In this document: positions 3,062-38,527 of the stretch, in pieces
Numbering within the stretch: the stretch's first letter is position 1
Layout of the letters: each line of letters starts with the position of its first letter
Virus record (IMG/VR): IMGVR_UViG_3300025910_000020
Span: 1-38,527 of that record
DNA length: 38,527 nt
Direction: 5' to 3' (one strand)
From: a virus
Notes under the pieces: model-generated
Databases searched by the model: none
Told to the model about the DNA's origin: nothing
Seen by the model: only the letters and a program-made list of their open reading frames with translations
Made by a program: the position numbers and the translations under genes

Positions 3062-3394
3062 ATGTGGCTAATCGCCTTGCTATTGATCGGTCCGACCCAG
3101 CCAGAATCAAAGCCGTGGTATGACTCTCGAGCGGCCCACAAGGACGCTTGGAAGGTCTGTGCGGTCACCGCTGCGGACCTTGGATCTACCGAACTGATCC
3201 TGGCTCGTGGAGGCCGGGAGTACTCTCCGTTAGTCCGCAACAGAGCCGTTAGGATTGGAATCGGTGCCCTCGGTTGCGTCGCGCTGCACGACATGGCCAA
3301 GAGAGATCCCGAGAAGGCTAGGAAGTGGGCCAAGGTCGGAATCATCGTCCGCGGACTCGCCTTTGCCTGGAACGTTCGGCAGATCGCACGTTAA
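3062..3394 (+). CDS. Small membrane protein, paralogue of 2488-2814
   Basis: 110 residues. ATG 3062 is preceded by GGAGG at a 5-nt spacing and by TATAGT further upstream; longer in-frame starts lack these. The N terminus MWLIALLLIG is a signal or anchor. The core LARGGREYSPLVRNRAVRIG and the C-terminal IVRGLAFAWNVRQIAR match the first paralogue closely. Its TAA overlaps the TAA of the minus-strand tail fibre within a TTAA palindrome. The gene pair is thus exactly nested between two minus-strand genes, as expected of an acquired module. Function unknown; likely acts in the host membrane. Confidence 0.8.
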   Translation: MWLIALLLIGPTQPESKPWYDSRAAHKDAWKVCAVTAADLGSTELILARGGREYSPLVRNRAVRIGIGALGCVALHDMAKRDPEKARKWAKVGIIVRGLAFAWNVRQIAR

Positions 3395-12120: not shown

Positions 12121-12140
12121 TCACACCTCTAAAGATAGGC

Positions 12141-12158
12141 GGGGGGCCGAAGCCCCCC
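12141..12158 (-). terminator. GC hairpin with UUCG loop after the decoration-like gene
   Basis: Perfect 7-bp stem GGGGGGC/GCCCCCC with loop TTCG on the minus strand, then GCCTATCTTT. It lies between the genes at 12172 and 12120. The T-run is short, so this may be a weak terminator or an mRNA stabiliser that sets coat-module expression. Confidence 0.6.
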
Positions 12159-12171
12159 AACCGTAAGAACC

Positions 12172-35049: not shown

Positions 35050-35461
35050 GGTGCCACCTCCATTCCCTCTCCGCTTACGTCGATCCCATGGCTCGCAAAG
35101 AACGCCAAGCACCTTTCCAGGTACGCGCTGAACTGCTCCCGATCCAGTAATGCCGTGCTCTTGATCATCCGCTTCTGACCGAACACCACCACCTCGGTCG
35201 GTGGGCAGTACTCCTCCTTCAAGAACTCATGCAATTCCTTCTCGGTATGGCCGTGTACTCCTCCATTCCCCTCATGCCTTCTCGATAACTGGCCCACAGT
35301 TTTCTATTGGCCTGGAGGCTACGCTTGACTCTGAGTCGCTGGATGCTGACCTCGATGCGCTTCCCGTCCAAGGCTGCAATGAATCCCGAGACTGTACCGG
35401 GTTGATCGAAGTGCAGCCGGCCGTGATCAGCCAAAGCCAGGAAGCGACCGATCCTAGGCAT
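35046..35461 (-). pseudogene. NinB-like recombination protein, split by a -1 frameshift
   Basis: The N-terminal part starts MPRIGRFLALADHGRLHFDQ and has KRIEVSIQRLRVKRSLQANR, the NinB-type signature. It is open to 35219, but after ~70 residues it loses sense. The C-terminal part continues in another frame from about 35250: HTEKELHEFLKEEYCPP, then STALLDREQFSAYLERCLAF, the C-terminal NinB pattern. Reading one base back at GGCC (35249-35256) joins EEYTG and HTEKELHEF smoothly. NinB proteins bind ssDNA and support recombination (orf family). Either a base is missing in the sequence, or the gene is broken, or a -1 slip occurs. Confidence 0.7.
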
Positions 35462-35738
35462 TGCCCTCAGCCTTGGCGATGGCCTTATCGGCCATAACTT
35501 TCAAGTCCGGAAACCTGCATTGCATTCTGAGGGCCTTCAGGGCTTCCAAAAGATCAGGCGCGGCTAGCATAAGGGCCATGTCAGCGGGAGATGGAGCCAC
35601 ACCCTCCGTGGGGTAATACTGTGTGTCATCTCCAAAACCACAGACCTCCTCGCCGTTCGGCCCAAAGAATCCGCCAAGATCAGAATCCCAAGTGCTCGCC
35701 TTTAGAAAACTCCATGGCCCCGGCGTATGCTTAGTCAC
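35454..35738 (-). CDS. Small phage protein (HTPGPW...AAPDLLEAL family)
   Basis: 94 residues from GTG 35738 (8-bp overlap). HTPGPWSFLKAS at the start and DMALMLAAPDLLEALKALRM near the end are the signature of a common phage family of unknown function. The gene at 37946-38203 carries a similar LIAAAPELHEVLRRF, so the genome holds two members. Confidence 0.75.
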   Translation of the reverse strand: MTKHTPGPWSFLKASTWDSDLGGFFGPNGEEVCGFGDDTQYYPTEGVAPSPADMALMLAAPDLLEALKALRMQCRFPDLKVMADKAIAKAEGNA

Positions 35739-35943
35739 GGAAGCCCTCGAAGGCATCGTCAGGGCACGGGTAGTCCATGTCCTTCTTGATCGCTCTACGT
35801 GTCGCCGCTACCGTCCGACGATGCTCTACTTCCTGACGGTACTTCTCGGCCTTGCCACAGATGACACAGATGGCCCAAGGCAAGCCTGGACCATCTCCCG
35901 GGGTTACGGTCTCATTGCAGCGGTAGCAGGTGATTCGCTTCAT
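35731..35943 (-). CDS. Zinc-ribbon small protein
   Basis: 70 residues. CYRCNETVTPGDGPGLPWAI then CVICGKAEKYRQEVEHRR gives two CxxC knuckles ~20 apart; an acidic tail ends FEGFRD. It lies directly downstream of the SSB-like gene. Could bind nucleic acid or act as an adaptor; unknown. Confidence 0.75.
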   Translation of the reverse strand: MKRITCYRCNETVTPGDGPGLPWAICVICGKAEKYRQEVEHRRTVAATRRAIKKDMDYPCPDDAFEGFRD

Positions 35944-35945
35944 GG

Positions 35946-36431
35946 CTAGACCAGCAGGCTTCCCAAGGTCAGGAGCGGAAGCAGAATGGGGAGCAAGAGG
36001 CTAAATGGCACATCATCGTCCGAGGCCACGAAGTCATCCCGCAGGGTTTCCTCGGTCTCCTGCGGCTCTTCATACCCCTTGGGCGGCGCAAGCTTCCGAG
36101 TAGCCTCTCGCTGCGGCTGGGTCTTCGGGGCTCGCACGCGGATGCAATCGACCATCTCCCCCGAGAACTCGGTCTCAGTGGGATAGAGAACGATTTCCAC
36201 CCCCCGCCACTCGTCCGTCTCATCCGTGCCGGCGATCTTCTGAATGGTCCTGGAATTGGTCTTGTTAAGCACCAGCCCCTTGTCCTTGCCCTTGAAGTAC
36301 AGCACCGGCTTTTCGTCCTTGTCTCGGCCGATGTCCTCCACCTTGACGGCGTTAATGGTCACGGTGACGGCGTTACCGTTCAGATCCGCCGCCTTCAGGT
36401 ACTTGTTCGGGAACGCTGATCCAATCTTCAC
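35946..36431 (-). CDS. SSB-like (OB-fold type) phage protein with altered C-tail
   Basis: 161 residues from GTG 36431, with a strong SD (GGAGG, 6 nt). It starts MKIGSAFPNKYLKAADLNGN; KPVLYFKGKDKGLVLNKTNS and EWRGVEIVLYPTETEF follow. This is a widespread phage family of OB-fold character that sits in replication regions, so an ssDNA-binding role is inferred. Residues ~138-143 read DDDVPF, the acidic tip that normally ends SSB-type proteins, but here 18 hydrophobic residues follow (SLLLPILLPLLTLGSLLV). A TAG lies one base out of frame right after the tip. The long structured leader precedes this gene. Confidence 0.75.
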   Translation of the reverse strand: MKIGSAFPNKYLKAADLNGNAVTVTINAVKVEDIGRDKDEKPVLYFKGKDKGLVLNKTNSRTIQKIAGTDETDEWRGVEIVLYPTETEFSGEMVDCIRVRAPKTQPQREATRKLAPPKGYEEPQETEETLRDDFVASDDDVPFSLLLPILLPLLTLGSLLV

Positions 36432-36449
36432 TCAAAACCTCCTATGAGA

Positions 36450-36598
36450 ACTCAAGGAGCCGATGGCGGGATTCGATGTACCCGCTGCACGGTGCTGTTT
36501 GCCCGTTCTGCTAAGGGGCATCTGCTACTCCCCATCGTGCCGTAGCACGGGCCTACCGACTCGATCAGGACAACCCTGACGGCATCGGCTCCTTGAGT
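36450..36598 (-). ncRNA. Structured RNA element closed by a 16-bp stem, in the leader of the SSB-like gene
   Basis: A perfect 16-bp inverted repeat (36450-36465 with 36583-36598) encloses four local hairpins: 36466-36485 (5-bp stem GCGGG/CCCGC stacked directly on the closing stem, loop TACATCGAAT, T-arm-like), 36515-36533 (GGGG/CCCC), 36536-36549 (CGTGC/GCACG with a UACG tetraloop) and 36565-36579 (TCAGG/CCTGA). Alternative pairings exist: 36501-36506 with 36547-36552, and 36487-36491 with 36536-36540, which exclude the UACG hairpin. The 3' end lies 18 nt before the start codon of the SSB-like gene and just above its SD. It may be a cis-regulatory RNA (riboswitch-like or protein-bound) or a processed small RNA. 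Confidence 0.7.
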
Positions 36599-36767
36599 CC
36601 TCTAGTGGCGGCCTCACCCACCCTAGCCGCCCGGACCATGCCTCACGACTTCTGGTCTCCCCACCCCGGCGCGCCCCGAGGACAGGCTCCAACCCTCTCC
36701 GCTCGATTGCATTCCGCTTTCGAGCCGGAACGTCGGAAGGCCGGACATGGCATCTCATGACGTTCTA
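36599..36767 (-). other. Upstream part of the long leader, GC-rich and structured
   Basis: About 170 nt between the promoter and the 16-bp stem. A hairpin GGCGGC/GCCGCC spans 36607-36631, and other short stems are possible. The only frame here (36525-36758) is Arg-rich, not protein-like, and crosses the stems, so I treat it as noncoding. Confidence 0.5.
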
Positions 36768-36796
36768 AGTGTGCGCCTTGAACGTCCCACAGTCAA
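36768..36796 (-). promoter_or_regulatory. Sigma70-like promoter before the structured leader
   Basis: TTGACT (36796-36791), 17-nt spacer, CACACT (36773-36768) on the minus strand. The upstream edge shares a 15-bp exact match (36792-36806) with the promoter at 1068-1082. It would drive the leader RNA, the SSB-like gene and the operon below. Confidence 0.6.
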
Positions 36797-36999
36797 GCGA
36801 TTTCTTTCGGGTTTGATTCCCGATTTATGGCCTCGATCAGTGTCCAAAGCCGCCACATATCGCTCTTACACAGCTTCGTGACCCATACGCTAGGGTGGCC
36901 CTCGGCTTCGATGCGGTAAGCCGCTGGTCTGTCGCAGCACTGGCACTGACCGTCATATGCCGTTGCGATCACCACGCGGAGCCTTTCACGTCCGCTCAT
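36793..36999 (-). CDS. Zinc-ribbon-like small protein
   Basis: 68 residues. YDGQCQCCDRPAAYRIEAEG near residue 15, then KLCKSDMWRLWTLIEAINRE: three or four Cys for a zinc site plus a helix. The stop codon lies inside the -35 box of the next promoter. Last gene of the left accessory operon. Confidence 0.7.
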   Translation of the reverse strand: MSGRERLRVVIATAYDGQCQCCDRPAAYRIEAEGHPSVWVTKLCKSDMWRLWTLIEAINRESNPKEIA

Positions 37000-37313
37000 G
37001 GCCGCAGATCCACCAGTCTCATGTTCAACCGGATGCCCACAGGACCCTCCAGAATGCCCTGGGCGGCCTCCAAAGTCAGGCAGCCGGACTGGACTACCCT
37101 ACCCGTGGTTTCCTGCACCCACCAGAGCTTGTAGTGCTTCTCACCCAAATCGGGAAATTTTACCGGATAGAACCCCCCGCAGACTTCGCAGATGGGGTCC
37201 CAGCCAGTTGACGAGTGATAGCCGCGTGCATAGCAGACTTCCCAGGACTCGAGCCGGTCCTCGGCTGTGACTGGAATGGCCTCGTTGTGCTGCTCTACCC
37301 ATCGGTCGGTCAT
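36996..37313 (-). CDS. Small protein with zinc knuckle
   Basis: 105 residues from ATG 37313 (ATGA overlap). YARGYHSSTGWDPICEVCGG has a CxxC pair; FPDLGEKHYKLWWVQETTGR and AAQGILEGPVGIRLNMRLVD follow. Alpha/beta; unknown function. Confidence 0.7.
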   Translation of the reverse strand: MTDRWVEQHNEAIPVTAEDRLESWEVCYARGYHSSTGWDPICEVCGGFYPVKFPDLGEKHYKLWWVQETTGRVVQSGCLTLEAAQGILEGPVGIRLNMRLVDLRP

Positions 37314-37600
37314 TGCCTTGCCTCCGCGGCCTTGCGCGTGTGCTCCATGAGCCAAGCCGGAATGTCCTGATCCGTCCTCAGGAGGTACTGCGCGAGGCTG
37401 TCCTTACCGTCGAAGAAGTTATCCAGGAGCTTCATGGCCAGATCGCCCCGGCATACCCTCGTAACCTCAGGACCGTTCTGCTCTGTTCCCTCCGGTTGGG
37501 CGTAAAGCCCTCCCTCGGATTCACTGAGATCCTTTCCACCTTCTCTGCGTAGGGTGTACTCGATGTGGTCGATGTTGCAGATGTAGCCCTCTCGTCTCAC
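37310..37600 (-). CDS. Small hypothetical protein
   Basis: 96 residues from GTG 37600 (GTGA overlap). It starts MRREGYICNIDHIEYTLRRE; the C-terminal half (AMKLLDNFFDGKDSLAQYLL) is helical. No metal site. Unknown. Confidence 0.65.
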   Translation of the reverse strand: MRREGYICNIDHIEYTLRREGGKDLSESEGGLYAQPEGTEQNGPEVTRVCRGDLAMKLLDNFFDGKDSLAQYLLRTDQDIPAWLMEHTRKAAEARQ

Positions 37601-37788
37601 TTGTCCATTCTCCAGATGAGTTGACGCTGAAGCCGCTTGCGGAGAGCCTCCCGGTATTCCCGTTGACCAAGATCGGCCCTCTCATCCAATTCACGCATGT
37701 GCCGCATGGCATCAGAGATGGCTGCGCTGTAACCCCAATTGTAGCCACGTAGCTCAATCTGGTCTTCGGTCTTAGGAGATGGCTTCAT
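37597..37788 (-). CDS. Small helical basic protein
   Basis: 63 residues starting MKPSPKTEDQIELRGYNWGY; the remainder (AMRHMRELDERADLGQREYR) is a charged helix. Overlaps both neighbours as ATGA/GTGA. Not recognised. Confidence 0.7.
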   Translation of the reverse strand: MKPSPKTEDQIELRGYNWGYSAAISDAMRHMRELDERADLGQREYREALRKRLQRQLIWRMDK

Positions 37789-37949
37789 CGTCCCTCCGCT
37801 TTGGCTATGGCCACATCAATAAGTCGCATTTCGGGGCTGTTCTTCTCATAGATATCCCAACCCGGCTCACCATGAAGAGCCGCTATTGTCTCCCTTGCTT
37901 TGTATAGTGCTTCCAAAAGATCAGCAATCAAGTCAAGATGGGATCTCAT
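37785..37949 (-). CDS. Small helical protein
   Basis: 54 residues, starting MRSHLDLIADLLEALYKARE and ending IDVAIAKAEGR. ATG overlaps the upstream stop (ATGA), and the end overlaps the next ATG. It resembles short helical phage proteins that accompany the AAPxLLEAL family (neighbour upstream). Unknown. Confidence 0.7.
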   Translation of the reverse strand: MRSHLDLIADLLEALYKARETIAALHGEPGWDIYEKNSPEMRLIDVAIAKAEGR

Positions 37950-38199
37950 TGGCCCCCCGCTTTAGCAAGCACACGATCTGCATCTAAGACAAGTTCTACG
38001 TGATCTTCGGAGCAGGCTCCTCCAGAACCATGAGCTTCCCGACAATCCACAAACCGCCTAAGTACCTCATGCAACTCCGGCGCAGCCGCGATCAAGTGCG
38101 CGTTGGCCTTGGAGCACCAAGGAAGATGAGCTACCTTCCCCTCTCCGTCGTACACATCCCAGGCGTTAGGATCGTTCGGAGCCTGACGGACTTCCCACG

Positions 38200-38203
<4 letters not shown>
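37946..38203 (-). CDS. Small protein of the AAPxLLEAL-type family
   Basis: 85 residues from GTG 38203 (GTGA overlap with the Ala-rich gene). It contains NAHLIAAAPELHEVLRRFVD, similar to the motif of the 35454-35738 protein, and a C-terminal CSEDHVELVLDADRVLAKAG. The fold is likely a short alpha/beta unit. Function unknown. Confidence 0.7.

Positions 38204-38527
<324 letters not shown>

Follow-up and report, generated by a model that had tools for sequence, protein, structure and literature searches.

The operator of T4 gene 32 combines a pseudoknot of ~28 nt at its 5′ end with a less structured region exceeding 40 nt, in which UUAAA/UAAA repeats extend over the ribosome-binding site (PMC535899). 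RNase III prefers uninterrupted duplexes (PMC3997798). The element considered here lies directly upstream of a phage gene for an SSB-like protein and is best regarded as a real, rare and lineage-specific long-range helix, for which an ordinary role is plausible. We tentatively prefer the reading that it is an intercistronic stem confined to one lineage, which would probably act as an RNase III-type processing or insulation site in a leftward mRNA.

The window (the whole stretch of DNA analysed, 38,527 nt) is a 38.5-kb linear phage record from a soil phage, in which a P22-type portal and a head-closure protein suggest a podophage. Genes around the element are ordered leftward on the - strand. 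Between the end of the upstream same-strand gene at 36793 and the GTG of the SSB-like gene at 36431 lies an untranslated gap of 361 nt (36432-36792; Table 1), which agrees with a preliminary description of this DNA, in which about 330 nt without a credible gene had been noted. The sole long ORF inside the gap has no SD, encodes an Arg-rich sequence, differs from the window's genes in its GC profile (0.71/0.63/0.63), and matched no Pfam or PHROG family; six-frame translation of the gap and comparison with relatives likewise gave no credible match. The gap showed neither direct repeats nor iterons, was nowhere A+T-rich (GC 0.57-0.67) and contained no switch in skew, which argues against a DNA-level element such as a replication origin, a cruciform or a bipartite operator; such an element is improbable, even though the inverted symmetry exists in the DNA too and the gene next to it resembles replication or recombination genes. 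At its end (38320-38527), the window carries a long GCC/GGC repeat, the gene-strand reading of which is Ala-rich with Tyr and Asp, and a repeat of the same kind occurs at 3030-3330 of L015, a distant relative.

Table 1. Positions of the gene, the gap and the predicted RNA features around the element.
Feature	Position in window	Strand	Remark
SSB-like gene, GTG start	35946-36431	-	phrog_21613, E 4.3e-16
SD AGGAGG of the SSB-like gene	36438-36443	-	2 nt below helix, 6 nt before GTG
3′ arm of long-range helix (CATCGGCTCCTTGAGTTCTC)	36446-36465	-	includes CTCCT, complementary to SD
Interior, 117 nt	36466-36582	-	folding at shuffle level
GCGGG/CCCGC hairpin stacked on closing helix	36466-36485	-	pair probability ~0.86
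Open frame, 77 codons	36525-36758	-	judged non-coding
5-bp hairpin, cUACGg (UNCG-type) loop	36536-36549	-	pair probability ~0.7
5′ arm of long-range helix (GAGGACTCAAGGAGCCGATG)	36583-36602	-	pairs with 36446-36465
Upstream half of gap	36603-36792	-	weakly structured, z -1.4

The product of the downstream gene has no Pfam match, and no solved homologue was found. Members of its family end in DD[DE][IV]PF, an acidic tail of the SSB type, and tails of this type are used by bacterial SSB proteins for partner binding. The motif stands at or near the C-terminus in relatives, and distant family members in cultured phages adjoin an exonuclease gene. An SSB-like identity of the product is suggested by the tail of its family. 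In the protein of the window (35946-36431, - strand), the motif reads DDDVPF and is followed by 18 mostly hydrophobic residues (SLLLPILLPLLTLGSLLV).

The inverted repeat that defines the element is above chance. It comprises two segments of 23 nt (36446-36468 and 36580-36602) that are complementary at 21 of 23 positions, and is thus longer than the perfect 16-bp closing helix originally noticed. With a match scored +1 and a mismatch -2, it reaches 17, more than any other inverted repeat of the window, and none of 100 Markov-1 simulated windows attained this score (best 16). Across related phage contigs totalling about 0.74 Mb, one pair of repeats alone, in L134 (the contig also termed L050), scores at least 17 outside long genes. 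Read as mRNA (- strand), the arms are predicted to form 20 uninterrupted pairs including one G-U, with pair probabilities of 0.86-1.0, whereas the equivalent of the G-U on the + strand is an A-C mismatch; the duplex energies are -37.5 and -33.5 kcal/mol on the - and + strands, respectively. The whole element folds with a z of -4.8 because of this closing helix.

In contrast to the closing helix, the interior is at chance level. Folded alone, its 116 nt gave z values of -0.81 and -0.55 on the two strands; when the arms were kept and the inside was shuffled, z was -0.71 (p 0.22, that is, 22% of the shuffles fold equally well or better); and 16 possible interior helices were counted, as against 15.9 in shuffles. 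The set of four hairpins proposed earlier is therefore indistinguishable from shuffled sequence, and an elaborate folded interior RNA is not supported. The crossing or mutually exclusive pairings that had been thought to form a pseudoknot fare no better, with ensemble probabilities of 0.02-0.04 and 0.00 in a model that does not cover pseudoknot energies. The hairpin likened to a T-arm has a loop of 10 nt, as opposed to the 7-nt T loop, and ARAGORN detected no tRNA or tmRNA. What does stand of the interior is the hairpin with the UACG loop, the single interior feature rarer than background: it exists on the mRNA strand only, and from its rate in related phages about 0.005 such hairpins would be expected per 116 nt, a figure counted post hoc. 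Together with the G-U pair of the helix, it provides a weak strand-specific hint in favour of RNA. Elsewhere in the window, an 8-bp hairpin with a cUUCGg loop occurs on the mRNA strand at 12140-12159 (-), and all four UNCG hairpins of at least 5 bp in the window lie on the gene strand.

As the preliminary description had stated, the SD of the SSB-like gene lies only a few nucleotides below the stem (Table 1). The CTCCT of the 3′ arm can pair with it (CTCCTTGA-GTTC-TCATAGGAG), which would allow a two-state translational switch: with the arms paired, the SD would be exposed and translation on, and with the 5′ arm taken up by a protein, for instance the SSB-like one, or by a ribosome that reads a six-codon frame (ATGCCGTCAGGGTTGTCCTGA), the 3′ arm would mask the SD and turn translation off. 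The predicted pairing fits such a switch, the SD core being 0.99 paired without the 5′ arm and its GGAGG 0.02-0.33 paired with it. However, this masking is unremarkable, since the SD is masked equally well by 2.6% of 20-mers drawn at random from genomic sequence and by 9% of shuffled arms; moreover, in the predicted fold of the whole gap most of the SD is paired anyway, its predicted accessibility varying with the assumed 5′ end, and the arrangement is not conserved. A switch is accordingly doubtful. An autogenous operator of the T4 gp32 type, in which the SSB-like protein would repress its own mRNA by cooperative binding, is very improbable, although the family of the product carries the SSB-type C-terminal tail and the element abuts the SD of the product's own gene. 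The distance from the 16-bp core of the stem to the start codon is only 18 nt (TCTCATAGGAGGTTTTGA), a stretch free of UUAAA/UAAA repeats. The analogy to gp32 drawn in the first reading of the sequence finds no support on either count, be it the pseudoknot or the less structured region above 40 nt with its UUAAA repeats.

Other assignments made at the outset were not borne out either. A sigma70-like promoter had been placed upstream of the element, but a scan of 35400-38200 at a threshold of 9 of 12 matches found none where 1.0 was expected, by a criterion that may not fit the promoter type of the host. In the Rfam covariance search that had been proposed for the element, no family came near its gathering score, and the matches at E 0.6-3.6 were judged to be chance. 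With no match in Rfam or by ARAGORN, and with the element found at none of 88 homologous loci, a riboswitch or a processed tRNA-like RNA is left without positive support.

The search for relatives covered 88 loci, 80 of them viral and 8 bacterial, at which a homologue of the SSB-like gene occurs. At none of them was there a comparable gap or repeat upstream of the gene, the largest gap being 164 nt. The closest relative shares the portal and the SSB-like gene (about 50% identity), and its preceding gene ends at the start codon of the SSB-like gene. That every relative found lacks the repeat is the outcome that the preliminary description had set down as speaking against its leader RNA. Comparison at the DNA level revealed no copy of the element in 50,697 phage records, 72,556 plasmid records or 397 genomes from the order of the Mesorhizobium locus L103, and nothing similar to the element and its surroundings in the 31 records behind the loci. 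The T-arm-like hairpin used as a search pattern and the upstream gene used as bait also retrieved no relative. R1, a covariance model derived solely from the element, matched the window and, at E ~5e-5, a different long stem in L048/L050/L134; the latter match runs through the long stem only and was not counted as homology. Plasmid matches of 21-31 nt were chance pieces, and exact stem patterns at various spacings in viral contigs fell in coding sequence with other interiors and were likewise put down to chance. As far as can be seen, the element is confined to this lineage, because it is missing from all 88 loci and R1 matched nothing else but the different stem. The contig of the close sister L008 (portal 98% identical) ends before the region of the element.

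Orphan status of this kind can be explained equally well by two events that require no function in RNA. One is a MITE-like, non-autonomous insertion of 157 bp with 23-bp terminal inverted repeats, in which the repeat would be a relic of transposase recognition and any effect on RNA would be incidental. Short bacterial MITEs are comparable in size and in the length of their terminal repeats, relatives lack the element at the place where this phage has it, and a loosely placed TA stands on either side (flanks ...CCTAT / TAGTG...). On the other hand, the element is a single copy in the window and has none in the phage, plasmid or 397-genome collections, which may not include the host, and the TA duplication, offset by one base and palindromic, is weak evidence; the insertion is therefore a rather unlikely explanation. 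The other event, about as unlikely, is a functionless inverted duplication left in the gap by a template switch or a repair event. The orphan status, the random interior and the lack of relatives are as it would predict, and the near-perfect arms suggest youth. It does not account for a position exactly before the SD, nor for a non-coding gap of 361 nt, which is unusual here given the gaps of at most 164 nt before the 88 homologues; the sole mismatch in the 20-bp helix, moreover, is a G-U on the mRNA strand, for which the chance is even with any transition.

Because the interior is at chance level, only the helix shows design, and for that reason explanations in which the helix suffices are placed first. 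Among them, an intercistronic processing or insulating stem is supported by a repeat that is above chance and unique in the window, by the non-coding gap directly before the SD, by pairing that is better on the - than on the + strand, and by the UNCG-type hairpin on the mRNA strand only. In such a model, the gap is probably transcribed within a longer message, because the flanking genes run in the same direction and no promoter was seen in the gap. As the 3′ arm emerges, it would pair with the 5′ arm, transcribed some 117 nt before it, and form the predicted 20-bp helix 2 nt before the SD. An uninterrupted duplex is the kind of substrate on which RNase III acts, and the helix predicted for the transcribed strand spans about two turns, so that the RNase III of the host may cut it. 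Cutting, or simply the stem, would isolate the SSB-like cistron from the message upstream and provide it with a short leader bearing its own SD, so that stability and translation of this cistron could be set independently; the interior would then be a spacer and not a sensor. Against an intercistronic stem, homologous operons (the 88 loci; L015) do without the element, the whole-gap fold predicts a largely paired SD, and there appears to be no relative with the element in which compensatory changes could be counted.

Closed elements of another sequence occur in an SSB-type phage operon at 2817-2922 and 2925-3065 of L048/L050 (13441-13689 of L134), where two of them follow each other in about 400 nt of apparently non-coding DNA. 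They carry a 22-bp perfect and a 22-nt near-perfect inverted repeat and are followed by a hairpin resembling an intrinsic terminator (3149-3186). The interior of the first folds beyond chance on both strands (z ~-3.4), and no relative of these elements was found in phages, plasmids or 199 genomes. These elements may deserve their own study more than the element of the window. It is conceivable, but quite unlikely, that the latter is a lineage-specific cis-acting RNA at the SD of a replication gene that would sense the state of infection through exposure of the SD, and would form a loose class with the long-helix RNAs of L048/L050 in SSB-type operons of soil phages. A similar arrangement was observed at 4620-4750 of L007 (also in L090, L021 and L130), where a 20-nt, 90% inverted repeat surrounds 91 nt; the SD of a 74-codon ORF lies in its right arm, and the ORF begins directly after the repeat. 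The L007/L090 repeats were rejected as relatives of the element: they are 17-20 nt long with mismatches, stand before a different gene and share no sequence with it.

If the element is a processing or insulating stem, it would represent another way in which phages separate the cistrons of a long message, gained by one lineage while its relatives do without. The locus also calls for caution in naming orphan structured RNAs, as an inverted repeat alone gives the region a z of -4.8 though the interior is at chance. Compared with known systems, the element shares with the T4/RB69 gene 32 operator (PMC535899, PMC3014915) its place before the gene for an ssDNA-binding(-like) protein, but differs in having neither a supported pseudoknot nor a long unstructured UUAAA-rich stretch. 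With the RNase III stems of phage and bacterial polycistronic RNAs it has in common a long uninterrupted helix in a gap between same-strand cistrons, near the next SD; its helix, however, closes a 117-nt loop and not a short hairpin, is not conserved, and is only a putative site of cleavage. Small bacterial MITEs of the TA-targeting IS630 type are similar in length (~157 bp), in terminal inverted repeats of ~23 bp and in sporadic presence, whereas the element is a single copy with no clear target duplication, and neither a source transposon nor a second copy was found. The closed elements of L048/L050 likewise have closing helices of 22 bp, perfect or nearly so, and lie in a related operon within a non-coding gap; they show no sequence similarity to the element, lie below the SSB-like gene, and include one whose interior folds beyond chance.
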